This document shows positions 47,437 to 59,854 of a stretch of 64,000 nucleotides of DNA, in pieces. Position 1 is the stretch's first letter. The number at the start of each line of letters is the position of its first letter. A program made the position numbers and the translations under genes. This DNA comes from Vreelandella massiliensis (GTDB lineage: Bacteria > Pseudomonadota > Gammaproteobacteria > Pseudomonadales > Halomonadaceae): positions 329,562 through 393,561 of the forward strand of contig NZ_LT699744.1 in NCBI RefSeq assembly GCF_900155385.1, read 5' to 3'. The notes beneath the pieces are model-generated. The model did no database searches. It was not told the origin of the DNA and saw only the letters and a program-made list of their open reading frames with translations.

Positions 47437-48165
47437 CTAAGAGAGGCGCCTAAGATAGAGCCAGCGCACATCCACCGCGAAGGAGTAAACCAGCGTGAAG
47501 AGCGCGCTAAGCGCCAGTATCGCCGCCGTCTCACTGGAGGTGATCGGCGTTAGCGCCAGCAGCAGGGCGCTGACTTGCCAAACGCACACCGCTTTGCGCC
47601 GCCGGCTGGCAAAAAGCGGTGCTTTCAGCCACGGATAGACCCCGCCTGCCACCACAAAGGCGTAGCGTATGGCACCAATCGGCAGCACCCACGGGCCAAG
47701 CCCTGAGTGGGAAATCAGCGCAAGGCTAAGCAGCAGAATCAACAGCGCGTCCATCTCCATGTCAAAGCGGGCGCCGAAGGCGGATTGGCAGTGGGCTTTG
47801 CGCGCGATAAAGCCATCCACCCCGTCGAGCAGCAGGGCGGCAGTGGCGATACCCAGCCACTGCCATTGCGCCAGCGTCGTGGCTTCGGCCGAGAGCCCGC
47901 CGGCGACCAGGGCTACCAGCACGCCGCGCAGTAGCGTCACCCGGTTGGCCCACCCGAGCGCCCCGAGCGGCCAGAAGCGCACGATGCCTACCCCGATCAC
48001 GCTATAGATCAAGAGCGCGAGCGCGCGCTGCTCCGCGCCTTCAATGACGCGAGGGAACGCGTAACTTAACAGCAGCAAGACCAGGCCGCCTACGACGACC
48101 TCCGCCAAGGTAGAGAGACGCTTGGAGAGCGTTAAGGTGGAGGGAGTAGGGCGGTACAGGAACAT
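47437..48165 (-). CDS. CDP-alcohol phosphatidyltransferase family protein
   Basis: 242 residues with six or more membrane segments and the full CAP catalytic motif DGVDGFIARK...GARFDMEMD (D-x2-DG-x2-AR-x8-G-x3-D-x3-D). Such enzymes transfer a phosphoalcohol from a CDP-alcohol to an acceptor alcohol, usually in phospholipid synthesis. It is not PgsA or PssA by length and surroundings. Divergent from the BchC-like dehydrogenase with 143 bases between starts, and it belongs by context to the pterin/flavin-like cluster. GGGAGCG upstream. Confidence 0.85.
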   Translation of the reverse strand: MFLYRPTPSTLTLSKRLSTLAEVVVGGLVLLLLSYAFPRVIEGAEQRALALLIYSVIGVGIVRFWPLGALGWANRVTLLRGVLVALVAGGLSAEATTLAQWQWLGIATAALLLDGVDGFIARKAHCQSAFGARFDMEMDALLILLLSLALISHSGLGPWVLPIGAIRYAFVVAGGVYPWLKAPLFASRRRKAVCVWQVSALLLALTPITSSETAAILALSALFTLVYSFAVDVRWLYLRRLS

Positions 48166-48308
48166 CGGGTCGCTCCCGGCGATAAAATGATAAAAGCTGT
48201 TGCAATACTGCTGCTATGTACCATTCTTGTAGAAGATGGTGCTGTTGTCGAGTAGAGTGATAGGTATTGAAGAGACCTTTAAATCCGCAGATACAGTAAG
48301 GATGACGC

Positions 48309-49286
48309 ATGGCAAATCAAGATGCCACGGCTTTCTGGCTGAGCGCGCCCGGTAAAGGGGAGCTGCGCCAGACGCCGCTGCAACGGGCCGATATCGAAGC
48401 GCCGGTGGAAGTGCTAACGCGCTATAGCGGCATCAGTCGTGGGACCGAAGCGCTGGTGTTTCACGGACGCGTGCCGGTCTCCGAACAGAGGCGCATGCGC
48501 GCCCCGTTTCAGGAGGGCGACTTCCCCGCCCCGGTAAAATACGGCTACAGCAGCGTGGGCGAGGTAGTCGCCGGCCCGGCGGCACTCAAAGGGAAGACGG
48601 TCTTTTGTCTCTATCCGCACCAGGACCGCTATGTCGTCCCCGCCAGTGCCGTGCATGTGCTGCCCGAGGGCACGCCGGCCGAGCGCGCCATTCTCGCCGC
48701 CAACATGGAGACTGCTATCAACGGCGTATGGGATGCAAGCCCGCTGCCAGGCGAGCGCATCACGGTGATCGGCGCCGGGGTGGTCGGGGCACTGACGGCG
48801 TATCTCTGTCGGCGCATCATCGGCACCGAGGTGCAGCTGGTGGATATCGACCCTAAGCGCCAGGCGCTAGCCGACGCCCTCGAACTCCCCTTTGCGCTGC
48901 CGGCCAACGCGCACGCCGACCGGGACCTCGTCATTCACGCCAGCGGCCACAGCGAAGGGCTGAACACGGCGCTTGCGCTGGCCGGGACGGAGGCGCGCAT
49001 TATCGAAATGAGCTGGTATGGCGAAGGCAGCGTGCCCGTATCGCTTGGCGGTGCGTTTCATTCGCAGCGATTGACCCTACGCGCCAGCCAAGTCGGGCGG
49101 CTGCCCACGCATCAACAGCCAAGGTGGAGTTTTGAAAGGCGCCTTACCTTAGCACTACGCTTATTAGCAGACCCTGCGTTGGATGCGCTCATCAGCGGTG
49201 AGTCAAGCTTTGCGGCACTGCCCAACGTTGCCGCCGATATTTTTGCCCCCGACAGCGGCGTGCTCTGCCATCGGATACGTTATTGA
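48309..49286 (+). CDS. Zinc-less MDR dehydrogenase (BchC-like)
   Basis: 325 residues of the medium-chain dehydrogenase/reductase fold. The loop SGISRGTEALVFHGRVP, where alcohol dehydrogenases have the catalytic-zinc Cys, has Ser instead, and the four-Cys structural zinc loop is missing; the same GIS-GTE pattern occurs in BchC. A Rossmann NAD(P) site is present: VIGAGVVGALTAYL with Asp in LVDID (NAD preference). Substrate unknown. GTAAGGATG upstream; it heads a co-directional run into the PTPS-like, GT/MT and flippase-like genes. Confidence 0.8.
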   Translation: MANQDATAFWLSAPGKGELRQTPLQRADIEAPVEVLTRYSGISRGTEALVFHGRVPVSEQRRMRAPFQEGDFPAPVKYGYSSVGEVVAGPAALKGKTVFCLYPHQDRYVVPASAVHVLPEGTPAERAILAANMETAINGVWDASPLPGERITVIGAGVVGALTAYLCRRIIGTEVQLVDIDPKRQALADALELPFALPANAHADRDLVIHASGHSEGLNTALALAGTEARIIEMSWYGEGSVPVSLGGAFHSQRLTLRASQVGRLPTHQQPRWSFERRLTLALRLLADPALDALISGESSFAALPNVAADIFAPDSGVLCHRIRY

Positions 49287-49334
49287 GCCGTCATAAAAAG
49301 CGACGCGCTCGCTCGATCGAGACAAGGAGTTTTC

Positions 49335-49733
49335 ATGTACCGTCTTTGCGTTCGTGACCACCTGATGATTGCCCATAGCTTCAAGGGTGAAACCTTCGGC
49401 CCCGCGCAGCAGATGCACGGCGCTACCTACGTGGTCGACGTGGCCTTCCAGCGCCCCACGCTCGATAGCGACGGCCTAGTGATCGATATTGGCCTGGCGG
49501 GTGACGCGTTGAAAGCCATCTTGGCCGACTACAACTACCGCAACCTGGACGAAGTCGACGAGTTTAAAGGGCACAACACCACCACCGAGTTCATGGCCAA
49601 GGTGATTTTTGACCGTATTGCCGCGGCGATTAAGCAGGGGGCGCTGGGCGAGACGGCCACCGGCATCGAGCGCTTAGAGGTTAAACTCCATGAGTCGCAT
49701 ATCGCCTGGGCAAGCTTCGAGGGCGCGCTGTGA
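49335..49733 (+). CDS. 6-pyruvoyl-tetrahydropterin synthase/QueD homologue with altered active site
   Basis: 132 residues, the length of a T-fold PTPS subunit, with AHSF, MHGATYVVDV, NTTTEFMAK and the C-terminal EVKLHES. Compared with the canonical C-x3-HGH and DHH motifs, the Cys nucleophile position is Ala24, the third zinc His is Ala30 (HGA rather than HGH), and the catalytic DHH region reads DYN (65-67); the C-terminal substrate-anchor Glu is retained. It probably does not perform the standard PTPS or QueD reaction. Stop overlaps the next start (GTGA). Confidence 0.78.
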   Translation: MYRLCVRDHLMIAHSFKGETFGPAQQMHGATYVVDVAFQRPTLDSDGLVIDIGLAGDALKAILADYNYRNLDEVDEFKGHNTTTEFMAKVIFDRIAAAIKQGALGETATGIERLEVKLHESHIAWASFEGAL

Positions 49734-51643
49734 GCGAGCGCCTGTGCGTGATAGTGGCCGGTGACCCGAACCAGCGCACCGGCGGCTATCTCTACGATGC
49801 GCATATCGCTCAGGCGCTACGCGAGGCCGGCTGGCAGGTGGACGTGGTCGGGCTTGAGGGGCGCTTCCCCGACGCCGACACGACCGCCCGCCAAGCACTG
49901 AACGCCGCCTTGGCTGCTCAGCCAGACGATAGCCGCGTGGTGATCGACGGCCTGGCCATGGGCGCACTGCCCGAGGTGGTGGCACAACATCATCAGCGGC
50001 TGGATATCACCGCGTTAGTACACCACCCGCTAGGCGACGAGCAGGGGCTTTCGCCCGCCCGGCAGCGCCAGTTCCACTACAGTGAAGTGGCCGCGCTCGC
50101 GACGGTTGCGCGCATTATCGTGACCAGCCCCTTCACGAAGCGCCGCCTGGCCACACTCGCCGTGGATCGCGCGGTGACGTTGCCGGAAATCGGTGTGGTG
50201 GAGCCCGGCGTGGCACCCGCACCCTTGAGTGAGCCCAATGATGGCGCAACGGTGCGTTTTCTTTGTGTGGCCACCCTGGTGCCGCGTAAAGGGCAGGATC
50301 TCTTGGCGCAAGCGCTGGCGCCGCTGTCGCATCTTGAGTGGCGGTGCGACTGCTACGGCAGCACCGAGCGCGACCCGGCGTTTGCTCAGCGTGTGACGAT
50401 GCTGATAGGCGAACAGGGGCTTGAGGGCAGGCTTAACCTACACGGCGAGTGCGACGACGCCGCGCTTGAAGCCGCCTACCAACGCGCCGATGCCCTGGTG
50501 CTGCCCGCCTGGTACGAGGGCTACGGTATGGTGATCACCGAGGCGCTTGCAAGGGGCCTGCCGGTCATCACCACCACCGGCGGCGCGCTGAACGATACCC
50601 TCCCCGACGCCGCCGGGATGAAAGTGCCACCGGGGGACGTTAATGCCCTGTCCGCCGCGCTAGAGCGCTTTTTAACCGACCCCGCGCTGCGCGGCAAGCT
50701 TCGCCAAGGGGCGAGTACCGCGCGCGAACACCTCAACGACTGGCAATCGGCGGGCGAGCAGTTTGCCCGTCTGCTGGGCGTTGCCGCACCCGGTAGCCAC
50801 TTCACCGCCGACTGGCTCACCCTGCGCGAGCCGGTAGACGCCGAGGCGCGTAGCCAGCACTTAGTGGAGGCAGCGGCAGCATGGCTTTCCACCAAGCAGA
50901 CACCGCTTGAACTGGTGGATCTGGGCTGCGGCCGGGGCAGCAACGTCTGTTTTCTCGCGCCGCACTTTCCCGGGCCGCAGCACTGGCAACTGCTGGACCA
51001 CGACCCCATGCTGTTGCGACAAGCACGTCAGCGCAGCCAGCGGTTATGCGATCGCGACGGCCAGTCGGTCACGCTGGAGACATCGGCCCGCTCGCTCACC
51101 GAGCTGCCCTTGAACTGGCCCGCGCAGGCGGATGTGATCAGCGCCTCGGCGCTTTTGGATCTGGTCTCTGCCGAGTGGCTCGACGTGCTGGTAGAGCACT
51201 GTGCGACACACCGGCAGGCGCTTTTTTTCACGCTAAGCGTGACCGGCGACTGGCACCTGACCGACGCGCGTGGCACGCCGCATAACGACGCCGAGGATGC
51301 AACTATCCAGGCGCTTTTTAACGCTCACCAGCAGCGCGATAAAGGCTTCGGTGCCGCACTCGGCGGCCGGGCGCATGCGGCGCTGGTAAAGCGCCTCGAT
51401 GCCGCGGGTTTTTATGTGGAAGAGGCGGCTTCACCCTGGCGGCTAAAGGCGGGCCAGGATGAGCACATAACCCTTCTGTATCCGCTGATCAATGGCTGGG
51501 CGGAGGCGGCGCTTGAGCAGGCACCGCAGCAGCACGAGTGGATCAAGGCGTGGCGCGCAGCGCGCCTAGCCCAGGTAGACGCCGGTGAAATCGGCGCCTT
51601 CGTCGATCATCGCGACCTGTGGGCGAGGCCCGCGCATGGGTAG
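49730..51643 (+). CDS. GT4 glycosyltransferase fused to SAM-dependent methyltransferase
   Basis: 637 residues from GTG 49730. Residues 1-345 are a GT-B glycosyltransferase of family 4: GDPNQRTGGYLYDAHIA, LCVATLVPRKGQDLLAQAL and the donor-binding EGYGMVITEALARGLPVI (E-x7-E). Residues about 370-600 are a class I methyltransferase: LVDLGCGRGSNVCFLAPH is the SAM motif I. One polypeptide therefore glycosylates and probably methylates the same product. Soluble. It overlaps the flippase-like gene by eight bases. Confidence 0.85.
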   Translation: MSERLCVIVAGDPNQRTGGYLYDAHIAQALREAGWQVDVVGLEGRFPDADTTARQALNAALAAQPDDSRVVIDGLAMGALPEVVAQHHQRLDITALVHHPLGDEQGLSPARQRQFHYSEVAALATVARIIVTSPFTKRRLATLAVDRAVTLPEIGVVEPGVAPAPLSEPNDGATVRFLCVATLVPRKGQDLLAQALAPLSHLEWRCDCYGSTERDPAFAQRVTMLIGEQGLEGRLNLHGECDDAALEAAYQRADALVLPAWYEGYGMVITEALARGLPVITTTGGALNDTLPDAAGMKVPPGDVNALSAALERFLTDPALRGKLRQGASTAREHLNDWQSAGEQFARLLGVAAPGSHFTADWLTLREPVDAEARSQHLVEAAAAWLSTKQTPLELVDLGCGRGSNVCFLAPHFPGPQHWQLLDHDPMLLRQARQRSQRLCDRDGQSVTLETSARSLTELPLNWPAQADVISASALLDLVSAEWLDVLVEHCATHRQALFFTLSVTGDWHLTDARGTPHNDAEDATIQALFNAHQQRDKGFGAALGGRAHAALVKRLDAAGFYVEEAASPWRLKAGQDEHITLLYPLINGWAEAALEQAPQQHEWIKAWRAARLAQVDAGEIGAFVDHRDLWARPAHG

Positions 51644-53447
51644 CGGCATGATGAGTCGCGCGCTACCAACCGCCGCCGTGAAGCGGCTGGCGATCAGCGC
51701 CTTCGTGCTGATCGCCGTGGCGCTGCTGCTTGACCCCAGCGCGATAATGGCCGAAGTACAGGCGTTTTCGCTGCCCTGGCTGCTGGCGGGGCTGGCCCTC
51801 AGCGTTCTCCAGGTACTCTTGTGCGCGTGGCGCTGGCGGCTAACCGCAGGGCTGATTGGCGTGCCGCTGCGTTACCGTTACGCGGTGGCCGAGTACTACT
51901 TGGCGCTTTTCATCAATCAAGTGCTGCCCGGCGGCGTGCTTGGCGATGCCGGGCGGGCGCTGCGTCACGCGCAGCAGACAGCCCAGCAGGGTAGCGCCTG
52001 GCGCGCGGTGATTATCGAGCGCGCCTCGGGGCAGCTAGCCGTGGGGCTGTTAACGCTGCTGGCGCTAGTCAGCTCGCCGCTATGGCACGCGGCATTAGGG
52101 CCAAGCGGCTACCTTTGGCTCTTGGTTGGCGTGGGGAGTGTAGCGCTCTGCGTGGGGCTAACCGCCGCTTTCATACCCGAACGGCTGCGCTTGCCCGGCT
52201 GGGTGCGCGCGCTCTGGGCGGATATTCAGCGCGGGCTCTGGCAGGGCCGTGTGTGGGCCTGGCAGCTAGCGTCGTCGCTGATGATCGTGTTCAGCTACGC
52301 CCTGGTGATGCTCTGCGCGACCCGGGCGATCGGCGTCGAGCTGCCGGCGAGCATGCTCTTGGCGCTGGCGCCGCCGCTGCTGCTCTCGATGCTGATTCCG
52401 CTCTCCGTGGCGGGCTGGGGGCTACGAGAAGGCACTGCCGCCAGCGTCTGGGCGTGGGTCGGGTTGGCCCCCAGCCAAGGCGTGGCGGTGTCGCTGGCGT
52501 ACGGGGTGATCGTGCTGCTGGCGACGCTGCCGGGGCTTTGGGTCGCGCTGATTCGGCGTCGCCGGGCAACGCCGGTGGAGTCTGGGGCGAGCGGGGCGTT
52601 GACGCGTCCTTCAACGGCTTTTCAGGCAGAGGTCAAACAGGGTGTCATCCCCACAGGCGAAGCGTCGCGCACGCGGGCGCAGGGCAGAGGCCAGGGTATC
52701 GATCGGTGTCATGGCAAGGCCGGGGCGGCCCGAACCAATCAGCAGCGGTGCCACCAGCAGGTGCAAGCGCTCCACCACGCCGGCCTCAATGAAGCGGGAG
52801 ACGGTCACCCCGCCGCCTTCCACCAGTATGCGCGCATAGCCTTGGGCTTGCAGGTGGGCGATCACCGCCGCCGGCGGAAACTGCCCGTCAGCCATCAGGG
52901 GCAACGACTGGCGTTGAACATGCGGGGCCGGCGCGGGAAGCGAGACGTCAGGCCCCACCAGGTGCAGCGTGGGGGCCGCGTCGTCCTGAAAAAGTGTCAG
53001 TGTTGGCGGCACGCGCCCGCGCGGGTCGAGAATCACCCGCAGCGGATGCGCCCCTTGAACGTGGCGCACGGTCAGCTGCGGGTTATCCGCGCTGGCGGTG
53101 CCCGCGCCCACGACGACCGCATCGCAGAGGGCGCGCAAACGGTGCAGATGCACCAGGCTTTCGTGGCCGTTGATGTAGTGCGAGTGGCCGCTTTCGGTGG
53201 CGATGCGCCCATCCAGGCTCTGCCCCAGTTGAGCGATGACCCACTCCGGGTGCGACATCAGCGGGGCCAAGCAGTCAAGCTGATCGGTGGCGGGCGTCGG
53301 GGTGTCTTTGAGCGTAGCGTTAGGGTCGGTCATGGCGCCTCCGTGCGGTGCGAGATGGCCTCATCATGCGTGTCTACCAGCGGCCGTGCAAGCCGCACGA
53401 TTACCAGCACGGCGCTTGTGAAGTGCTCATTTGAAGTGCTCTCTTGA
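51636..53447 (+). CDS. UPF0104/LPG-synthase-TM flippase-like protein, frame overruns
   Basis: From ATG 51636 the frame stays open for 603 codons, but only about the first 322 residues look real: eight or more membrane segments and the family loop LFINQVLPGGVLGDAGRALRHA, ending near RRRRATPVE as these proteins (about 310-330 residues) normally do. From about 52600 the frame is exactly antisense to the RibD-type reductase gene and encodes an Arg/Gln/His-rich tail. A TGA one base out of frame at 52600 hints at a missing or extra base. Members flip or hold lipid-linked molecules in the inner membrane. Confidence 0.65.
   Translation: MGSGMMSRALPTAAVKRLAISAFVLIAVALLLDPSAIMAEVQAFSLPWLLAGLALSVLQVLLCAWRWRLTAGLIGVPLRYRYAVAEYYLALFINQVLPGGVLGDAGRALRHAQQTAQQGSAWRAVIIERASGQLAVGLLTLLALVSSPLWHAALGPSGYLWLLVGVGSVALCVGLTAAFIPERLRLPGWVRALWADIQRGLWQGRVWAWQLASSLMIVFSYALVMLCATRAIGVELPASMLLALAPPLLLSMLIPLSVAGWGLREGTAASVWAWVGLAPSQGVAVSLAYGVIVLLATLPGLWVALIRRRRATPVESGASGALTRPSTAFQAEVKQGVIPTGEASRTRAQGRGQGIDRCHGKAGAARTNQQRCHQQVQALHHAGLNEAGDGHPAAFHQYARIALGLQVGDHRRRRKLPVSHQGQRLALNMRGRRGKRDVRPHQVQRGGRVVLKKCQCWRHAPARVENHPQRMRPLNVAHGQLRVIRAGGARAHDDRIAEGAQTVQMHQAFVAVDVVRVAAFGGDAPIQALPQLSDDPLRVRHQRGQAVKLIGGGRRGVFERSVRVGHGASVRCEMASSCVSTSGRASRTITSTALVKCSFEVLS
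52611..53333 (-). CDS. RibD C-terminal-type reductase, no deaminase domain
   Basis: 240 residues with the dihydrofolate-reductase-like fold of RibD/Rib7: QLGQSLDGRIATESGHSHYING, the NADPH-binding VVVGAGTASADNPQLTVR and LVEGGGVTVSRF. The N-terminal deaminase half of bacterial RibD is absent, so it looks like fungal Rib7 or archaeal ArfC, which reduce ribosyl- to ribityl-aminopyrimidine before deamination. GGAGG precedes the ATG. Divergent from the RibA-like gene, with about 150 bases between starts. Confidence 0.82.
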   Translation of the reverse strand: MTDPNATLKDTPTPATDQLDCLAPLMSHPEWVIAQLGQSLDGRIATESGHSHYINGHESLVHLHRLRALCDAVVVGAGTASADNPQLTVRHVQGAHPLRVILDPRGRVPPTLTLFQDDAAPTLHLVGPDVSLPAPAPHVQRQSLPLMADGQFPPAAVIAHLQAQGYARILVEGGGVTVSRFIEAGVVERLHLLVAPLLIGSGRPGLAMTPIDTLASALRPRARRFACGDDTLFDLCLKSR

Positions 53448-53485
53448 ACAGAAGGCGAGTCCGAATAAAAAGCGAGGAAGCTTCT

Positions 53486-54651
53486 ATGTACCACATTGAA
53501 CGCGCCATTTTTGATATTCGTCGTGGGCTGCCGGTGGTGATCCACGCCGGTTCAACGCCGCTTTTGGTGCAAGCCTTGGAGGGCAGCGATTCGGTGGCAA
53601 CACTGGCTGAGCTATCGGGCTCGCGCCCGGCGCTGGTCTTAACGCGCCACCGCTTAGCGGCCATGGGGCATTCGCTCAGCGCCGAGGCGGCGCGGCTTCC
53701 CCTGGCAGCCGAAATGAGTTCGGCCCAGTTGCATACCCTGGCTGTCGCTGAGCCAAAAGGCGAAAAACAGCGCCTAAGCGGGCTCTCCGCGGCGGGGCCG
53801 GCCGAGCCTCACTATACCCAGCACCGCCAACACCATCTCTCTTTTTTTTTTTAATGATACGGCGACCACCGAGATCTACACTCTTTCCCTACACGACGCT
53901 CTTCCGATCTACAGGGCCGCCGGCAGCAGCAGCGGCTATCGATGCCAAAGTGGCGCGGGGCGAGCTTCTACGCTTGGATGCCGACGACGCTTTAAAGGCG
54001 TTGCATGGGGCGCCGGGAATGCTCAAGCGCGTCAGCGAAGCGGATATCCCGCTGGAGAACGCCCAAGCGTCGCGATTTGTGCTCTTTCGCGAGCCCGATG
54101 GGCTGCGCGAGCACGTGGCCGTGGTGATCGGCGCGGTGGAGAATGCAGACACGCCGGTACCGATCCGTCTGCATTCGGCCTGCTTGACCGGCGATCTGTT
54201 CGGGAGCCTGCGCTGCGACTGCGGCGATCAGCTGCGCAACGCCGTGGCGGAAATCAACGCCATGGGCGGCGGGGTGCTGCTCTATCTGGCGCAGGAGGGG
54301 CGCGGTATCGGGCTTGCCAACAAACTACGCGCCTACACGCTGCAGGATACGGGCCTGGATACCGTGGATGCCGATCAGGTATTGGGGTTTGGCGACGATG
54401 AGCGCCGCTACGGCGTCGCGGTGGATATGCTCAATGCCCTAGGCATTACCCAGGTGCAGCTGTTGACCAATAATCCGCTGAAAATGGCCGCGCTGCGCGA
54501 CGGCGGTATTGAGGTGGTCGCCCGGCAAGCGCTTTACGGCAGCGTGACCGACCAGAACCAGCGCTATCTCACCGCCAAAGCGAACCGTTCGGGGCACTAT
54601 CTTCACGATGCCCTGCGCGATGTCATCCATGGCGCCCGACCCAATGGGTAA
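53486..54651 (+). pseudogene. ribA: GTP cyclohydrolase II with degenerate RibB domain, interrupted by adapter
   Basis: Two halves of one gene. The left frame starts ATG 53486 (GAGGA upstream, MYHIERAIFDIRRGLPVVI) and stops at 53854 in foreign sequence. The right frame resumes near 53911 (GPPAAAAAIDAKVARGE) and runs to 54651. The right part has a complete GTP cyclohydrolase II core: zinc ligands CLTGDLFGSLRCDCGDQL, QEGRGIGL and NKLRAYTLQD. The left part aligns with RibB, but the acidic EDExxxEGD motif of DHBP synthase is replaced by IHAGSTPLLVQALEG, so that activity should be lost. The break is an assembly artefact (next entry), so the gene may be intact in the organism. Confidence 0.85.
53842..53910. 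other. Illumina P5 adapter with poly-T run (sequencing artefact)
   Basis: Bases 53853-53910 equal the 58-base Illumina universal P5 adapter, from AATGATACGGCGACC to CTTCCGATCT, preceded by eleven T's (53842-53852). Reversed, this is a read that passes through its insert into the adapter and then into poly-A, the usual read-through pattern. Its plus-strand translation MIRRPPRSTLFPYTTLFRS is a familiar contaminant sequence in protein databases. It is not genomic. Confidence 0.99.
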
Positions 54652-54661
54652 GCGGGCGGCG

Positions 54662-55432
54662 TCAAGCCAGCGGCGGAAGCCGCGCGGTCTCTTCCACCAC
54701 TTGGGCGAGCAAGCCGCCGTAGTGGCGCACCAACCGCTCGCCCAATGCCGGGGTGGCCTTAGTGGCATTGCCGGCAATGCCGCTGGGCGAGAGATCCTCG
54801 GCGAGCCAGGCAAAGGGTGCTATCCCCTCGGGGCCAACCAAGGCGCCAGGCGTCGGCGGCTGGGTTAACGCGTTCACCGTGTGCTGCATCTTGACCTGCT
54901 TAGGGGCTAGGTGAAGCATCATCGCCGTTTCCAGCGTCCCGCCGTGCAGGCCACGGCGCAACTCATCGCTATCGAGCGCGCCCTGCAGCGGCGGCAAGCG
55001 GGTATACGTGGCCTTGACCACGCGCATGCCGTGGCGGCGGCGCAGCGTTAGCGCGGCAAGGTCCATCACGGCTTTGTTGCCGCCGTGGCTATTGATCAGT
55101 ACCCACCGTTTGATGCCCGCCCGGGCGATGCCCTCGCCGTAGGCCTCAAGCGTTGCGATGGCAAGCGAGGCGGGCAGGCTCAGCGTGCCGGGAAAGCTTG
55201 TGTGCTCGTCGCTGGCGCCAATGGCCATAGCGGGCAGGCATATCGCCGTGACCTCACTCGCGAGGGCGTCGCACATGGCGTGCTGCAGGCCAAGACCAAT
55301 CGTGGTATCCGTGTTTAACGGCAGGTGGGCACCGTGCTGCTCCGTGGCGCCGAGCACCAAGACGGCCACCGGGTCGCGGTCAACAAGGGCGGTGAGTTCG
55401 GGGGCGGTAAGGTGTTGCCAATCAACGTGCAT
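54662..55432 (-). CDS. Creatininase-family amidohydrolase (ArfB/MftE-like)
   Basis: 256 residues with the metal-binding motifs of the family: VLGATEQHGAHLPLNTD, LINSHGGNKAVMDL and HGGTLETAMMLHL. Members include creatininase, the mycofactocin peptidase MftE and archaeal ArfB, which removes the formyl group from the GTP-cyclohydrolase product. Convergent with ribA (10 bases between stops), next to a RibD-type reductase, so an ArfB-like role on a ring-opened pyrimidine is the best guess. No strong ribosome binding site is seen. It is followed by the FkbM gene on the same strand, 9 bases from the stop of that gene. Confidence 0.8.
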   Translation of the reverse strand: MHVDWQHLTAPELTALVDRDPVAVLVLGATEQHGAHLPLNTDTTIGLGLQHAMCDALASEVTAICLPAMAIGASDEHTSFPGTLSLPASLAIATLEAYGEGIARAGIKRWVLINSHGGNKAVMDLAALTLRRRHGMRVVKATYTRLPPLQGALDSDELRRGLHGGTLETAMMLHLAPKQVKMQHTVNALTQPPTPGALVGPEGIAPFAWLAEDLSPSGIAGNATKATPALGERLVRHYGGLLAQVVEETARLPPLA

Positions 55433-55441
55433 ACGTGGGCC

Positions 55442-56233
55442 TTAAACGGATGAAATGGATGAGTGTTTGAGTAAAGCATGATCGACGCGACAGGCGTAGA
55501 TATCCCCCGACGCGAGCCCGTCGGCCCCATTTTTTAGCCATGCGTGGATCTCGGCGGCGCTTTTCCACTGTGCCCACTGAAAGTGGCGCTGTTCGCCGGC
55601 GACGCAGTTGTAGCGGTAGTCACCCAGAATGCTTAAACGCTCGACAGAGGCGTGGCTAACGTCCAACGCGCCGGCGACAAACTCCACCGAGAGGGCCGCC
55701 ACTGCTCGGCTCAGCCCGGCCAGCACGTCGGCTTCAAACCCTTCCACGTCGATCTTGATAAACGCCGGCTCGCCATACTCACTGATCAGCGCATCGAGGG
55801 TGGTGACCGCCACGCGCTCGCTTGCGGCCCAGTTGAGGTGGGCAAACCCTGGGTTATGCTGGCCAATCTGCTCGCGCCACTGATCCGCCAGTGTTGAGAC
55901 GGTCAGGTTGGCCGGGCTGACGGCGAGCTCGGCATAACCGGGCGCTGCCCCGGCCGCCAAGGGGAGCAGCGTGATGTGGCGACCCACCATCCGCCGGCAC
56001 CAATGCGCGAGCAGCGGCTGTGGCTCCAGTGCCACCACCCGGGCGCCAAGGGCGTGAAACGCCGCGCTGCGATCCCCCAGGTGAGCGCCAATATCAAAGG
56101 CGAGCGAGCCCGGCGGCACAAAAGGCCGATAGAGGGCTTTAAGCCCGCTTTGGCGGCCGGGGCGCCAGTAAATGATCAGCGAGCGCGCGATGCCTACGGT
56201 CCTTAAGCCGCGCTGTTTTAGGAACGCGAGCAT
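55442..56233 (-). CDS. FkbM-family methyltransferase
   Basis: 263 residues from ATG 56233, with AAAGGAG upstream; the longer open frame to 56491 is antisense filler inside opgH. SAM-binding motif LAFDIGAHLGDRSAAFHALGARVVALEPQP and the FkbM hallmark FIKIDVEGFEADVLAGL. It O-methylates a sugar or polyketide, target unknown. The start shares one base with the opgH stop, so translation is coupled to opgH, and a glucan substrate is plausible. Confidence 0.83.
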   Translation of the reverse strand: MLAFLKQRGLRTVGIARSLIIYWRPGRQSGLKALYRPFVPPGSLAFDIGAHLGDRSAAFHALGARVVALEPQPLLAHWCRRMVGRHITLLPLAAGAAPGYAELAVSPANLTVSTLADQWREQIGQHNPGFAHLNWAASERVAVTTLDALISEYGEPAFIKIDVEGFEADVLAGLSRAVAALSVEFVAGALDVSHASVERLSILGDYRYNCVAGEQRHFQWAQWKSAAEIHAWLKNGADGLASGDIYACRVDHALLKHSSISSV

Positions 56234-58212
56234 CAATACGGCTCCTTTAGTGGTGAAGCGGGCGTGCGCTGTGCTGGACGGGTAAAACGCACAAAGGACT
56301 GGATAGGCATCTCGCCCGGCTGCTCCGGCGGGGGAGTGCGGGGGGAGCAAGCCGGCGGTTGGGGGCGCGCATGGGCGGCTTTCAAGTGCCGCGCATAGGC
56401 GTCGAGTACCGGCACACCGCCTTGACCGTGTTTTTGAAAACGGGGTTGTGGAAGGTAGGGCGTCGCGAGTAGCTGCCGGCGCGCGAACCACTCGCCGAGG
56501 CGCACGCTACTGGTCGCCTTGACCAGCGGCAGTGAGGCGATAAGCCCAAGCCACACCGGCGCGAACCACGTCAGAGCCGTCGGTGAAAAAATGCCTAAAA
56601 CGAGCATCCAGCCGCCGCCGGCCAAGGTGACACCCCGGGTGTGCCGCCACGCTTCACGCCAGCTCAGCGAGCGCTCGCTTCGCGGTTGGGTGTGCCACTC
56701 AATCGCCCGCCCGCGCAAAATAGCGAGGATAAACAGGCTATGCCACGCCATCATCAGCGGGGCGAGCAGGGCAGCAAAGCCGATCTCCAGCAGCGCACTC
56801 ACTATTAACCGGGCTCGGCCGCCAAAGGCGTTAGGCGCTTGGCGCAGCGCAAGTGCCAATCCCATGAGCTTGGGGGCGATCAGCATGGCCAGCGTCGTGC
56901 CGAGCAGACCCAGCGACAGAGGCGTGGCGTAAAGTGCTGCGGCGTCGGTCATGGCGACATAAGCGATCAATACGCTGGTGCAGACGAGCAGTGCCAACCA
57001 GACGGGAGAGGCCAGGTAGGCGAAAGCGCCGAAAAAGAAGTGCCATCGGCTTAGGGGGTGTAGCCCGGCGCCGTTTAATAGCCGCAAGTGCTGCAGGTTG
57101 CCCTGAAGCCAGCGCCGATCGCGCTTGGCGAAATCGAGTAAATTGCTGGGCATCGCCTCAAAGCTTTGCGCTATTTCAGATTGAGCGGTCGCGACACTTA
57201 CCTGCGTATCCAGCAAGACCTTCCAGCCATGGCGGCGCATAAGCGCTGCCTCGACAAAATCGTGGCTTAACAGCTCGCCACCAAGCGGTGGTTTTCCAGG
57301 CAGTGTGGGGAGGCCGCTACTCGCCATAAAGGCGCGCGTGCGCACGATGGCGTTGTGGCCCCAATAATTGGCCGTGTCGCCCTGCCAGAAACTCTGCCCG
57401 GCGGCCAACATCGGGCTGTAAAGGGCGGACGCGAACTGCACCAAGCGCCCAAACAGGGTGACTTGCCCCACTGGAATCGGCACGCTCTGGATAAGCCCCA
57501 CCTCGGGCTGATGCTGCATCCGCCTGACCAGCCGCAAGAGGGTCGCGCCGCCCATGATGCTATCGGCATCCAGCACGACAAAATAGTCATAGCGCCGCCC
57601 CCAACGGCGGCAAAAATCGGCGATGTTGCCCGCCTTGCGCCCATGGTTGTTGGGCCTGCGGCGGTAATGGAGAGAGAGCTGGCCTTTTAGACGACGTTGG
57701 AGCGCGGCGACATGCGCGGCTTCGCGGGTAGCGGCGTGCTTGTCTTGGGTATCGCTTAACACAAACACCTCGAAGCGCTCGGCGATCGACGTGTGGTTGC
57801 CAGCCGGCTGCGCGAGCAGGGAGCGGCAGCTCGCTTCGAGTCCGGCCAGGGTGGCCTCCGGGGGCTCCTGAAAAATCGGCATGATGAGCGCTGTGCGGCA
57901 AAAGGGCGTCGCTGCCAGGGTTTCGGGCACGCCTTCGTTCGGCGCAAGCGTTAGCGGGTCGCGGCGCGTCAGGCAGAGGATAAAGCCGCACAGCGCGCTC
58001 CAGAAGGCGAGCGCGACCCAGGTGAACGTCAGCACGAACAGCGTCATCAATACGGCCTTAAACCCCCATGCGAGGCCACTGGTAACGCCTAACATAGCCC
58101 AAAAGCCCAATGCACCGGTCGTCAGCACCAGCGCTGCCAGGCCCCAGCAGCGCAGGCGAGGCCACGGTGGGCGCTGCTCCGATAGGCATCGTGCGGCGGG
58201 CGCGCTAGGCAT
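56233..58212 (-). CDS. opgH: Glucans biosynthesis glucosyltransferase H
   Basis: 659 residues, family GT2. Membrane segments at the N-terminus, a cytoplasmic GT domain (ALIMPIFQEPPEATLAGLEASC, VVLDADSIMGGATLLRLV as the DxD, and RDRRWLQGNLQH as the QxxRW-like motif), then a further five or so membrane segments. It builds the beta-1,2-linked backbone of osmoregulated periplasmic glucans from UDP-glucose. It overlaps opgG by eight bases. Shorter than the E. coli protein (about 850) at both ends. Confidence 0.9.
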   Translation of the reverse strand: MPSAPAARCLSEQRPPWPRLRCWGLAALVLTTGALGFWAMLGVTSGLAWGFKAVLMTLFVLTFTWVALAFWSALCGFILCLTRRDPLTLAPNEGVPETLAATPFCRTALIMPIFQEPPEATLAGLEASCRSLLAQPAGNHTSIAERFEVFVLSDTQDKHAATREAAHVAALQRRLKGQLSLHYRRRPNNHGRKAGNIADFCRRWGRRYDYFVVLDADSIMGGATLLRLVRRMQHQPEVGLIQSVPIPVGQVTLFGRLVQFASALYSPMLAAGQSFWQGDTANYWGHNAIVRTRAFMASSGLPTLPGKPPLGGELLSHDFVEAALMRRHGWKVLLDTQVSVATAQSEIAQSFEAMPSNLLDFAKRDRRWLQGNLQHLRLLNGAGLHPLSRWHFFFGAFAYLASPVWLALLVCTSVLIAYVAMTDAAALYATPLSLGLLGTTLAMLIAPKLMGLALALRQAPNAFGGRARLIVSALLEIGFAALLAPLMMAWHSLFILAILRGRAIEWHTQPRSERSLSWREAWRHTRGVTLAGGGWMLVLGIFSPTALTWFAPVWLGLIASLPLVKATSSVRLGEWFARRQLLATPYLPQPRFQKHGQGGVPVLDAYARHLKAAHARPQPPACSPRTPPPEQPGEMPIQSFVRFTRPAQRTPASPLKEPY

Positions 58213-59788
58213 CCTCGGCTCCTGCTTTGGGCGGCGGGTCGATCACGTAGCTCCAGGTTTCGCTGATGGTTTCTCCGTTTAACGTCAAGGCAAGGCGCAC
58301 ATCAATCGGCAGCGCGATGGGATTAACGCGAAAAGTGGCGCGCCAGCGGTGGTCGGGTAGGGCTTTGACCTGCACCCATGGGATGACATCATCGTGTTGT
58401 TCAGGAGAGAGCGTTTCAGGGACTAGCGTTTCGAGTCGCACGTCGACGGCTTGATCGGCGCTGAGGTTCGCGAGCTCACCCCCGGCAAAATCGACCACCC
58501 ACTGGCGCTGATCGGCGCTTGGGGAGTTGGCCTCACCGGGCACTGCGGCGCTACCTTGGCGCGTGCGAATCACCTTCGCTAGCAGTGGGTCGCTCGGGGG
58601 GAGCGTGCGTGTGTGGGTTTGGTAGCGAAAATGGCGGGTTTCGCCCGCTTTAAGCGGCGTCGCACCGACCCAGTACGCCACAATGTTATCGTGCGTCTCA
58701 TCTGGGGAGGGTAGCTCTACGAGCTCCACATGTCCCGGACCCCAATCCCCTTCGGGGATGACCCACTGGCTCGGGCGGCGATGGTACTGGGCCTCTGCGT
58801 CCAGATAGCGGTCAAAATCACGCTCGCGCTGCATTAGCCCAAAGCCCCTAGGGTGATCGTCCAAAAACGCCGACACTCGAACGCGGTGCGGGTTATTCAG
58901 CGGCCGCCAGATCCACTCACCTTGTCCGGTGTGGGTTAAAAGCCCTTCGGAGTCGTGCACGCGGGGGCGCACATCATCCGGGCGATGGCGGCTAATATCG
59001 CCGTAGGCAAACATGCTGGTCAGTGGGGCGATACCCAGCTTTTCCACGTTGGCGCGGGCATAAAGGGTGGCATCCACATCAACACGGGTTTGGTGGCCGG
59101 GCGCGAGGCGAAAGTGATACGCACCGCTGAGCGATGGGCTATCCAGCAGCGCCATGATATGCACGGCGGTGTCGTCGGGGTCGGGCTTGAAGAGCCAGAA
59201 CTGACGAAACGCGGGAAACTCTTCGCCGCCAGAAAGGGCGGTATCGATGGCAAGCCCACGGGTGGAGAGGCCGTAAACTTGATCGCGACCGACGAGGCGA
59301 AAATAGCTGGCGCCTAGAAACACCGCGAACTCATCGCGATAGTCGGGCGTATTGAGCGGGTAGTGCAGGCGAAAGCCCGCATGCCCCGCGTCCCGTAAGT
59401 CGGCTGTTTCAAGCGCTGCGGCCTTGCCTTCGTAAATAAAATCGTCCGGATCAAAGGCAAGCGGGGTGGCGTTTGCGTTCTCTATGATATGTAACGTGAC
59501 AGGGTCGGGAAACAGAAAGCCGCGATGAAAGAGCTGCAAAGAGAAGCGGCTATCATCGCGCCAGTAGGCGCGCGTGGGGTCAAAGCGAATCTGGCGGTAG
59601 GTGTCGTAATCGAGTGTCCGGAGCGCCTCGGGCAGTGCGTTCTTGGGTGGGGCGTAGGGCTGTGCGGCCAGCGTCTCGGCGCGTTGACGCACGCTATCCA
59701 GCCAGCGATTCAGTTCGCTAGCGCTGGGCTCGGCCAGTGCGCTTGCGCTCACCATCAGCCATCCTAACGTCAGTAAGCGTTTTAGCAC
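58205..59788 (-). CDS. opgG: Glucans biosynthesis protein G (periplasmic)
   Basis: 527 residues from GTG 59788, which has AAGGAG upstream; the frame is open to 59854. Signal peptide MLKRLLTLGWLMVSASALA. The OpgG/OpgD family body begins LRTLDYDTYRQIRFDPTRAYWR, with FLGASYFRLVGRDQVYGLSTRGLAIDTA and FWLFKPDPDD. It shapes or branches the glucan chain in the periplasm. First gene of opgG-opgH-FkbM. An inverted repeat at 59829-59854 lies within its promoter region. Confidence 0.92.
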   Translation of the reverse strand: MLKRLLTLGWLMVSASALAEPSASELNRWLDSVRQRAETLAAQPYAPPKNALPEALRTLDYDTYRQIRFDPTRAYWRDDSRFSLQLFHRGFLFPDPVTLHIIENANATPLAFDPDDFIYEGKAAALETADLRDAGHAGFRLHYPLNTPDYRDEFAVFLGASYFRLVGRDQVYGLSTRGLAIDTALSGGEEFPAFRQFWLFKPDPDDTAVHIMALLDSPSLSGAYHFRLAPGHQTRVDVDATLYARANVEKLGIAPLTSMFAYGDISRHRPDDVRPRVHDSEGLLTHTGQGEWIWRPLNNPHRVRVSAFLDDHPRGFGLMQRERDFDRYLDAEAQYHRRPSQWVIPEGDWGPGHVELVELPSPDETHDNIVAYWVGATPLKAGETRHFRYQTHTRTLPPSDPLLAKVIRTRQGSAAVPGEANSPSADQRQWVVDFAGGELANLSADQAVDVRLETLVPETLSPEQHDDVIPWVQVKALPDHRWRATFRVNPIALPIDVRLALTLNGETISETWSYVIDPPPKAGAEDA

Positions 59789-59828
59789 GGGCGCTCCTTG
59801 AAAGGGCAGGAAGTAAATTAAACAATAC

Positions 59829-59854
59829 TTGTACGAATATTTATTACAGTACAC
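59829..59854. promoter_or_regulatory. Inverted repeat upstream of opgG, LitR/CarH-like
   Basis: TGTAC (59830-59834), 14-base spacer, GTACA (59849-59853). The core TAC-N14-GTA and spacing match the repeat at 26512-26541. As TGTACG-N12-AGTACA it fits 10 of 12 positions of the light-regulator motif recalled for Pseudomonas. It lies 42 bases before the opgG start and 84 before the divergent sulfatase-like gene. Confidence 0.4.

Follow-up and report, generated by a model that had tools for sequence, protein, structure and literature searches.

The window analysed here, a 64,000-nucleotide stretch of the Vreelandella massiliensis genome (contig NZ_LT699744.1), contains eight adjacent genes whose products resemble enzymes of riboflavin, pterin and lipid metabolism, raising the question of whether they define a pathway of their own and what its product might be. 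The initial annotation had proposed an undescribed pathway in which a GTP-derived molecule is glycosylated, methylated and coupled to a membrane carrier. Pfam and NCBIfam searches confirmed the coordinates and domains it assigned to the eight genes, which are arranged as follows:

47437-48165, minus strand: CDP-alcohol phosphatidyltransferase (Pfam PF01066, E 1.9e-13)
48309-49286, plus strand: MDR-type dehydrogenase lacking the customary zinc site (best NCBIfam match bchC)
49335-49733, plus strand: PTPS homolog of the SCO6650 type (Pfam; alignment to 3d7j and 2g64)
49730-51643, plus strand: fusion of a GT4 glycosyltransferase and a class I SAM methyltransferase (Pfam; relative loci)
51648-53447 (open frame, start approximate), plus strand: UPF0104/LPG_synthase_TM flippase-like membrane protein (Pfam PF03706, E 1.1e-33)
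52611-53333, minus strand: RibD C-terminal reductase, no deaminase (Pfam PF01872, E 5.3e-38)
53486-53852, plus strand: N-terminal, degenerate RibB-like part of GTP cyclohydrolase II (PRK08815-like), cut by adapter
53853-53910, plus strand: Illumina adapter, assembly artefact (exact 58-nt match)
53911-54651, plus strand: cluster RibA, GTP cyclohydrolase II portion (Pfam PF00925, E 3.5e-56)
54662-55432, minus strand: creatininase-family amidohydrolase, candidate BrbF/ArfB-like deformylase (Pfam PF02633, E 1.1e-61)
55442-56491 (open frame extent), minus strand: FkbM methyltransferase (Pfam PF05050), a recurrent neighbor outside the core

The GTG codon at 49730 starts the glycosyltransferase-methyltransferase gene and overlaps the PTPS stop codon (49731-49733), and the conserved UPF0104 domain ends at about 52535, its open frame continuing antisense to the ribD-like gene. 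The split of the cyclohydrolase gene is treated as an assembly artefact: the interrupting sequence is a verbatim adapter, matched in none of 100 shuffles, and a 31-nt part of it matches five places in the genome, the cluster copy included. The window protein scores 189.8 bits against the Pfam GTP cyclohydrolase II model and keeps the Zn cysteines (C...C-x-C). The notion of a dead RibB domain at its N-terminus fits the Proteobacteria, in which intact relatives have no DDEDRENEGD loop in this part and align weakly there with RibB (hhalign probability 57%, E 1e-4), but a RibB-like part was not seen by eye in Streptomyces frames. Pfam returned no RibB match in the one full-length cluster RibA scanned (L036).

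The eight genes constitute a real conserved cluster. Taken as markers, the HGA-type PTPS homolog and the zinc-less dehydrogenase were found in the same genomes: 17 of the 369 sampled from the class and 27 of the 398 sampled from the phylum. The cluster genes co-occur across phyla: overall, the markers accompany each other in 41 of 41 genomes and in 40 lie on one contig and at most 128 bp apart, the exception (G163) having the dehydrogenase and CDP-alcohol transferase genes on one contig and the PTPS, glycosyltransferase and methyltransferase genes on another. Among 80 named loci chosen by dehydrogenase match, which include Proteobacteria, Streptomyces, other actinomycetes and one Acidobacteria bin, 76 encode the PTPS homolog, 73 the glycosyltransferase, 68 the methyltransferase, 62 the CDP-alcohol transferase, 47 RibD, 46 RibA, 44 UPF0104 and 43 the creatininase. 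RibD shows the weakest correlation with other cluster genes (Spearman 0.32-0.60, computed among cluster genes only), which counts against the pathway proposed below. The glycosyltransferase and methyltransferase, fused in the window, are separate genes in many other taxa.

Closer to the window, all eight genes are present in seven of ten relative loci (L036, L037, L039, L040, L041, L042 and L043), seven in L038, which begins at a contig end, six in L034 and four in L035. Some frames are broken in L040. A strong match to the glycosyltransferase-methyltransferase fusion and the cluster PTPS occur together in 55 of 61 genus genomes; the same six genomes lack both, and two of these are only 66% and 71% complete. 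The cluster PTPS is also kept in a family of genomes of about 1 Mb (18 of 25 members, and 11 of the 11 near-complete ones), whose compact clusters have the CDP-alcohol transferase and UPF0104 genes and lack those for RibA and the creatininase. Regarding neighbors, 16 of 103 loci have a YceI gene no more than 15 bp from a core gene. Where the stretch extends far enough, and with L034 and L035 set aside, 9 of 10 relative loci carry the FkbM gene, as do 6 of the 80 named loci.

Concerning the product, we lean, with slightly better than even confidence, towards a dedicated GTP-derived pathway leading to a membrane-directed, glycosylated and methylated molecule with a 2-amino-4-oxopyrimidine (pterin-like) head group. 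In its first step, RibA would open GTP, and actinobacterial forms in which Met (perhaps His) occupies the E. coli Tyr105 site would go no further than a formylated intermediate; in its second, the creatininase-family enzyme would remove the formyl group. Met at this site is taken here to mark SCO6655-type cyclohydrolases, and SCO6655 reportedly stops at the formylated intermediate. Across 53 cluster RibAs the site holds Met in 28 (27 from Streptomyces and one from Amycolatopsis), His in 4 and Tyr in 21. The window RibA, having Tyr, was rejected as an SCO6655-type cyclohydrolase. A creatininase-family gene is found nearby in all 32 loci with a Met or His RibA (28 and 4) and in 15 of 21 with Tyr, an association (Fisher P 0.0024) that is not independent evidence because the split tracks phylum, with one locus (L108) excepted. 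Two observations count against the proposed pathway here: the window creatininase is unexplained by the Met rule, since its RibA has Tyr, and many clusters, those of the 1 Mb genomes among them, lack RibA and creatininase. The compact clusters would need diaminopyrimidine from a housekeeping RibA, because the cluster RibA is missing there.

The window creatininase, compared with BrbF at the level of the family, has the creatininase domain (Pfam, 208.8 bits) and the conserved metal-ligand pattern expected of a BrbF/ArfB deformylase: across 51 sequences, E31, H33, D42, H116 and E168 are each conserved to at least 97%. It reaches none of the named NCBIfam equivalog cut-offs for ArfB (22.9 against 180), creatininase (85.1 against 235) or MftE (111.8 against 172). 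The creatininase-family protein BrbF deformylates AFRPP (PMC9478397), and the window protein is a candidate deformylase by analogy.

In the third step, with no deamination beforehand, the stand-alone RibD reductase would turn the ribosyl group into a ribityl chain and leave the 2-amino group in place. In agreement with its initial description as deaminase-less, Pfam identified the RibD_C domain alone in this protein, and no deaminase, lumazine synthase or riboflavin synthase domain in the window cluster. At the RibG Lys151 site, the window reductase has Gln35, and 57 cluster RibD-like proteins present Gln (31), His (22) or Ser (4) and never Lys; Gln or His also occupies this site in ten of ten further loci. 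According to PMC3631187, Lys at this site marks reductases that take the deaminated substrate, with Asn found in archaea and Thr in fungi. The absence of Lys151 and of a deaminase matches the archaeal and fungal type of pyrimidine reductase (ArfC/RIB7), although the residue itself differs from Asn or Thr; with 96.3 bits against a TIGR01508 cut-off of 186.45, the protein resembles that equivalog and is not a member. As the reductase lacks the Lys expected for a deaminated intermediate, a pterin-like ring is favored and a modified flavin, the other product initially envisaged, is disfavored. Also counting against the proposed pathway, the RibD-like proteins encoded in L077, L090, L108 and L118 seem to belong to another subfamily. 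The first three reactions have experimental precedent in homologs, for the first in part only reportedly, and are candidate activities of the cluster proteins; the later steps and the product are predicted from protein families.

The side chain or ring may then be reworked by the non-zinc PTPS homolog and the NAD-type zinc-less dehydrogenase (step 4). The window PTPS aligns with SCO6650 (PDB 3d7j) over residues 1-132 (E 1.7e-48), and can be regarded as its ortholog on this similarity. True QueD/PTPS enzymes present three Zn histidines, a catalytic Cys and an Asp-His pair. With this family (COG0720) the cluster protein has in common a PTPS domain spanning the protein, the T-x-E region and the residues His14 and Glu120. 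It differs in carrying HGA for HGH, Ala24 in place of the catalytic Cys and, in the window, Asn67-Tyr68 at the Asp-His pair (alignment frame 2g64). Both HGA and A24 are found in 86 of 86 sequences, and the Asp-His site holds Asn in 77, Tyr or Phe in 78 and His in none; HGT replaces HGA in one copy from a 1 Mb genome (L167). The altered active site noted initially is thus borne out, and appears to be repurposed rather than decaying. Because it is similar over the full length and has lost the catalytic Cys, the Asp-His pair and one Zn His, the protein is placed in the SCO6650 type; SCO6650 itself reportedly lacks PTPS activity. Identity as QueD or a true PTPS was rejected on the lost residues and on an NCBIfam QueD score of 44.6 bits (cut-off 89.25). 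In the dehydrogenase, S43-R44-G45-T46-E47, which presumably replaces the catalytic Cys region, is present in 90 of 90 sequences, and D179, in 89 of 90, suggests NAD as the cofactor. Its usual zinc site is absent, as first proposed, and bchC is its best NCBIfam match; BchC identity was discarded at 42.7 bits, far under the cut-off of 291.25.

Glycosylation by the GT4 enzyme and methylation by the SAM enzyme would follow (step 5). Six PDB sequences match the cluster glycosyltransferase with E values of 1e-8 or lower, led by Tll1590, with an inositol-phosphate glycosyltransferase and PimA next. Finally, the CDP-alcohol phosphotransferase would attach a lipid or polyol phosphate to the product, which UPF0104 would carry across the membrane, with a YceI lipocalin gene following in some Gram-negatives (step 6). 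The signature of the former family, D-x2-DG-x2-AR-x8-G-x3-D-x3-D, is intact at residues 114-139, and across 70 sequences conservation is 97% or more at D114, D117, G118, A121, R122, G131, D135 and D139. The sugar, methyl and membrane-coupling steps, all part of the initial proposal, are predictions from family membership. Two families, CDP-alcohol transferase and UPF0104, underlie the predicted lipid attachment, and some clusters (e.g. L035, L044-L051) have neither, which weakens the proposed pathway at this point.

Vicine is a plant pyrimidine glucoside that branches from the riboflavin path. A glycosylated pyrimidine or pterin that is soluble and secreted, a secondary metabolite similar to vicine (named in PMC12202586) or limipterin, with the CDP-alcohol enzyme and UPF0104 serving another role or export, is an unlikely product, despite this precedent and the 10 of 80 named loci comprising only dehydrogenase, PTPS, glycosyltransferase, methyltransferase and RibD genes (contig ends can cut loci). 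The CDP-alcohol transferase shares the locus in 62 of 80 cases and persists with UPF0104 in the compact 1 Mb genomes, where retention of PTPS would be unusual for a dispensable metabolite. Quite improbable is a start from dihydroneopterin triphosphate (GTP cyclohydrolase I) towards a tetrahydropterin cofactor glycoside, with RibA and creatininase as accessories. The PTPS fold, its conserved Glu120 and the many clusters without RibA and creatininase speak for it; against it stand the 46 and 47 of 80 named loci with RibA and RibD reductase, the absence of FolE among the eight window genes (Pfam), the PTPS residue losses and the reported lack of PTPS activity in SCO6650.

A separate queD, which the initial annotation expected elsewhere, was not found: the cluster PTPS is the only one found in the window's genome, where QueC is also present. 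That this protein is QueD for queuosine, with unrelated neighbors, is nonetheless very hard to sustain, given the missing metal and catalytic residues, the additional PTPS matches in 52 of the 55 genus genomes carrying the cluster PTPS, its complete co-occurrence with the dehydrogenase and its presence in Streptomyces, which are not known to make queuosine de novo. That these are ordinary riboflavin genes, as their RibA and RibD domains might imply, is practically untenable, since a full housekeeping ribD, RibBA and another RibA lie elsewhere in the genome (ribH and nusB recognized by eye), as initially presumed, and these copies, the cross-phylum linkage, the missing deaminase and the absent Lys151 support GTP opening apart from riboflavin.

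Within the preferred reading of a membrane-directed product, we tentatively suggest, and hold doubtful, a new class of membrane cofactor: a widely distributed, phospholipid-anchored, glycosylated and methylated GTP-derived pterin/pyrimidine head group, flipped outward, bound by YceI in Gram-negatives and perhaps acting as a periplasmic redox carrier or antioxidant. It would be retained even in 1 Mb genomes, and a product that survives such genome reduction is unlikely to be a minor secondary metabolite. Some second copies of RibA or RibD that annotations assign to riboflavin synthesis are probably members of this cluster type.

The literature search found no description of this pathway, as the initial annotation had held, but the PTPS ortholog SCO6650 has been solved and S. 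coelicolor cyclohydrolases have been studied. Spoonamore et al. 2006 reportedly examined GTP cyclohydrolase II proteins of S. coelicolor, SCO6655 among them, and besides SCO6650 no other members of its cluster are known to have been studied. In 20 Streptomyces loci (S. coelicolor itself lying outside the fetched loci), the order is PTPS, glycosyltransferase, methyltransferase, UPF0104, creatininase and RibA, without RibD. This order suggests that the cluster RibA of S. coelicolor is SCO6655, listed as GTP cyclohydrolase II in PMC2853524. The window thus resembles this system in its full-length PTPS match and the placement of RibA, and differs in having Tyr where Streptomyces cluster RibAs have Met and in adding a degenerate RibB domain. 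The pathway would give a cyclohydrolase and a repurposed PTPS, both long orphaned in Streptomyces, a place in one system of up to nine genes.

The archaeal ArfA/ArfB/ArfC and bacterial BrbF branch, as outlined in PMC9478397 and PMC3631187, likewise involves a formylated intermediate, a separate deformylase (creatininase-family in BrbF) and reduction before deamination. In contrast, the cluster opens GTP with a GCHII-type enzyme, adds PTPS, dehydrogenase, glycosyltransferase, methyltransferase and CDP-alcohol genes, and in the window lacks the deaminase and the lumazine and riboflavin synthases of that riboflavin branch. The toxoflavin and vicine pathways divert the GCHII product from riboflavin to a methylated or glycosylated metabolite, as proposed for the cluster; they are narrowly distributed and are not known to involve a PTPS homolog, CDP-alcohol transferase or UPF0104 protein. 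Lastly, phosphatidylinositol mannoside synthesis also pairs a CDP-alcohol transferase (PgsA-like) with a GT4 enzyme, PimA being among the solved relatives of the cluster glycosyltransferase, but the head group of the cluster product would be a GTP-derived heterocycle instead of inositol.

Domain scans recovered in the window all eight genes named in the initial annotation: a CDP-alcohol phosphatidyltransferase (CDP-OH), a dehydrogenase, a PTPS homologue, a GT4 glycosyltransferase (GT) fused to a class I SAM methyltransferase (MT), a UPF0104 protein, a RibD-like reductase, a GTP cyclohydrolase II (RibA) and a creatininase. The features of this region are:

47437-55432, the eight-gene cluster
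49730, GTG start of the GT-MT frame, overlapping the PTPS stop, which ends at 49733
51648-53447, UPF0104 frame, open past its conserved domain and running antisense across the entire ribD-like gene
52611-53333, ribD-like gene
53853-53910, exact 58-nt Illumina adapter, splitting the cyclohydrolase gene
55442-59854, FkbM methyltransferase and OpgH/OpgG glucan genes, which adjoin the cluster in Halomonas relatives

A 31-nt part of the adapter has five matches in the genome, the one in the window and others at C2:1941648, 2011410, 2069513 and 612268 (one mismatch; C2 denotes contig coordinates of the same genome). Nine Halomonas-type loci (L036-L039, L041-L043, L068 and L111) present an unbroken cyclohydrolase frame of 374-421 codons from stop to stop, and the interruption was therefore treated as an assembly artefact. 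The antisense run-through of the UPF0104 frame recurs in L036-L039, L041-L043, L068, L111 and L096, and the frame is likewise open beyond its domain in L005, L006, L007 and L009; this run-on may be either a genuine C-terminal extension or an antisense accident. OpgH also adjoins the cluster in Betaproteobacteria.

The cluster is conserved well beyond this genome. Of the 61 genomes sampled in the genus, 55 carry a strong GT-MT match together with a cluster-type PTPS; the other six lack both, and two of them are 66% and 71% complete. Two families, the dehydrogenase (profile E 1e-60) and PTPS (profile E 1e-25), were searched genome-wide as markers. At these thresholds each sampled genome had both or neither: both occur in 17 of 369 in the class sample and 27 of 398 in the phylum sample, 41 distinct genomes together. 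In 40 of the 41 a single contig carries both genes, separated by no more than 128 bp; in the exception (G163), the dehydrogenase and CDP-OH are on one contig and PTPS, GT and MT on another.

When the dehydrogenase was used to scan named genomes, at least 577 confirmed stretches were returned, from which the best 80 by dehydrogenase similarity, not a random sample, were kept. These 80 loci come from Beta-, Gamma- and Alphaproteobacteria, Streptomyces, further actinomycetes (Actinomadura, Actinokineospora, Amycolatopsis, Kutzneria, Saccharothrix and others) and one Acidobacteria bin. PTPS was present in 76 of them, GT in 73, MT in 68, CDP-OH in 62, RibD in 47, RibA in 46, UPF0104 in 44 and creatininase in 43, with loci truncated by contig ends retained and their missing genes scored as absent. 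L040, with broken frames, was excluded from alignments and locus tables, and L003 had no usable RibA frame for residue comparison. A GT-MT fusion occurs in L034, the genus loci and L111, the remaining loci of the same comparison encoding the two in separate frames. Pairwise identities of PTPS, GT, MT, CDP-OH and creatininase correlate with each other (Spearman 0.75-0.91) and with those of the dehydrogenase (0.54-0.85), RibD being the outlier (0.32-0.60), all in a comparison confined to cluster genes.

The residues of the PTPS homologue bear on a rival reading, a role as QueD in queuosine synthesis. The positions H14, A24, Q25 and the HGA motif are conserved in 86 of 86 sequences, and E85 and E120 in 85 (one gap), so that, as judged from the alignment, the site is not decaying. 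At the Asp-His position of true PTPS, placed by alignment with PDB entry 2g64, 77 of 86 sequences have Asn and 78 have Tyr or Phe, and none has the Asp-His pair. The window protein has Asn-Tyr there, four residues before a conserved LD-x motif; this motif was ruled out as the catalytic LDH of PTPS, since the alignment puts the Asp-His pair four residues earlier. Only two PDB sequences match the family, the strong one being 3d7j, 'Uncharacterized protein SCO6650' (E 1.7e-48, all 132 residues). The SCO6650 study reportedly described a protein without zinc, catalytic triad or PTPS activity. Further PTPS matches were found in 52 of the 55 genus genomes with a cluster PTPS, among the matches listed mostly in frames of 277-290 codons, and on these grounds, together with the residue alignment, the queuosine reading was set aside. 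For the window's own genome it is not fully closed: a separate queD, one of the genes that the initial annotation proposed to look for, was not found, the cluster PTPS being the sole match despite the presence of QueC (C2:1657010-1657621).

Separate riboflavin genes, likewise proposed as a check, were located elsewhere in the genome. A full ribD (377 aa) and RibBA lie together at C2:1806000-1819000, with ribH and nusB identified by eye, and a further stand-alone RibA lies at C2:548202; RibD_C occurs twice in the genome. The cyclohydrolase part of the housekeeping RibBA (C2:1811280-1811741) is divergent, scoring 112.6 bits versus 223.1 for the stand-alone RibA, which is therefore probably the working GTP cyclohydrolase II. 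At the site of RibG Lys151, the cluster RibD-like reductases have Gln, His or Ser, with Lys in none of 57 sequences; all 10 further loci examined have Gln or His, the His of L178 being placed by alignment. The housekeeping RibD has Lys, by eye. With copies elsewhere and no Lys at this site, identity of the cluster with the riboflavin genes was set aside. According to PMC3631187, Lys introduced at this site of yeast RIB7 moves the preference to the deaminated substrate. Retention of the 2-amino group is therefore expected of the cluster reductase, and a PTPS fold that binds pterins would need that group. This line of reasoning speaks against a flavin product. In L077, L090, L108 and L118 the RibD-like proteins score low against the profile and carry Ser at the site; the cluster has probably recruited them from a different subfamily.

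The pathway reading in the initial annotation, a GTP-derived flavin- or pterin-like molecule that is glycosylated, methylated and attached to a membrane carrier, is right in outline, with 'flavin' probably wrong and the adapter requiring correction. The chemistry of the dehydrogenase, PTPS, GT, MT and CDP-OH on the head group, and the order of steps, we infer. SRGTE is present in all 90 dehydrogenase sequences; the protein matches only generic MDR enzymes in the PDB and gave a poor structure model from 8 sequences (mean pLDDT 64.4); its BchC identity was set aside after a curated family scan. The best PDB match of GT is Tll1590, alongside an inositol-phosphate glycosyltransferase, PimA and PimB-like enzymes. 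The MT domain model is good (96.4), and its PDB matches, generic class I SAM enzymes (best TM 0.62-0.63), gave no hint of substrate. The CDP-OH motif is intact, and the sequence had no PDB match at E 0.01.

Four neighbour families were chosen from a partial survey, noisy with shadow frames, and from locus reading. As raw counts, uncorrected for background and with distances from stop-to-stop frames that are lower bounds, 16 of 103 loci have a YceI lipocalin, and 10 a sulfatase-like membrane protein, encoded no more than 15 bp from a core gene; MoaA (4/103) and cytochrome b561 (7/103) were judged weak as conserved neighbours. OpgH and FkbM occur in 13 and 6, respectively, of the best 80 of at least 577 loci. 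According to PMC9113575, isoprenoids or ubiquinone-8 have been found with lipocalins of the YceI type, which curb lipid peroxidation in Burkholderia together with cytochrome b561. The YceI, sulfatase-like, OpgH and FkbM neighbours and this literature circumstantially support a membrane or periplasmic destination for the Gram-negative product. Several Proteobacteria and two actinomycetes have the sulfatase-superfamily protein (L081:17594-19420 and homologues) next to their cluster; none of these envelope neighbours was found in the Streptomyces loci examined.

Three genomes of about 1 Mb (L166, L167 and L168) retain seven genes nearly gap-free (CDP-OH, dehydrogenase, PTPS, GT, MT, UPF0104 and RibD), with YceI adjoining CDP-OH and with neither RibA nor creatininase in the 15-18 kb examined around the cluster. 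In their family, PTPS is present in 18 of 25 genomes, including all 11 with completeness of 90% or more and contamination of 5% or less. This retention in small genomes argues for an important product.

The first steps can be compared with characterized enzymes. A 2006 study of the Streptomyces coelicolor protein SCO6655 reportedly attributed release of a formylated pyrimidine to Met120 in place of Tyr. Twenty Streptomyces loci share the order PTPS, GT, MT, UPF0104, creatininase, RibA, without RibD (present in 7 other Streptomyces loci), and if PTPS is SCO6650 and S. coelicolor shares this order, the cluster RibA would therefore be SCO6655, entered as a GTP cyclohydrolase II in PMC2853524. Cluster RibAs were compared at the site matching E. 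coli RibA Tyr105: 28 have Met and 4 His, all from actinomycete loci in which a creatininase is close by, while the 21 with Tyr come from proteobacterial loci except L108, and a creatininase is close by in 15 of these and absent from 6 (Fisher P 0.0024, a single between-lineage contrast, not 53 independent cases). The constant pairing of Met/His-type RibA with the creatininase-family enzyme fits a role for the latter as deformylase, by analogy with BrbF of Sinorhizobium and Brucella, shown to be one in PMC9478397. The window RibA carries Tyr at this position; its creatininase may accordingly provide back-up deformylation or have a role elsewhere. No description of this gene set or pathway was found in the literature searched, whose partial coverage makes this weak evidence of absence, and credit is due to two S. 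coelicolor proteins, SCO6650 and SCO6655.
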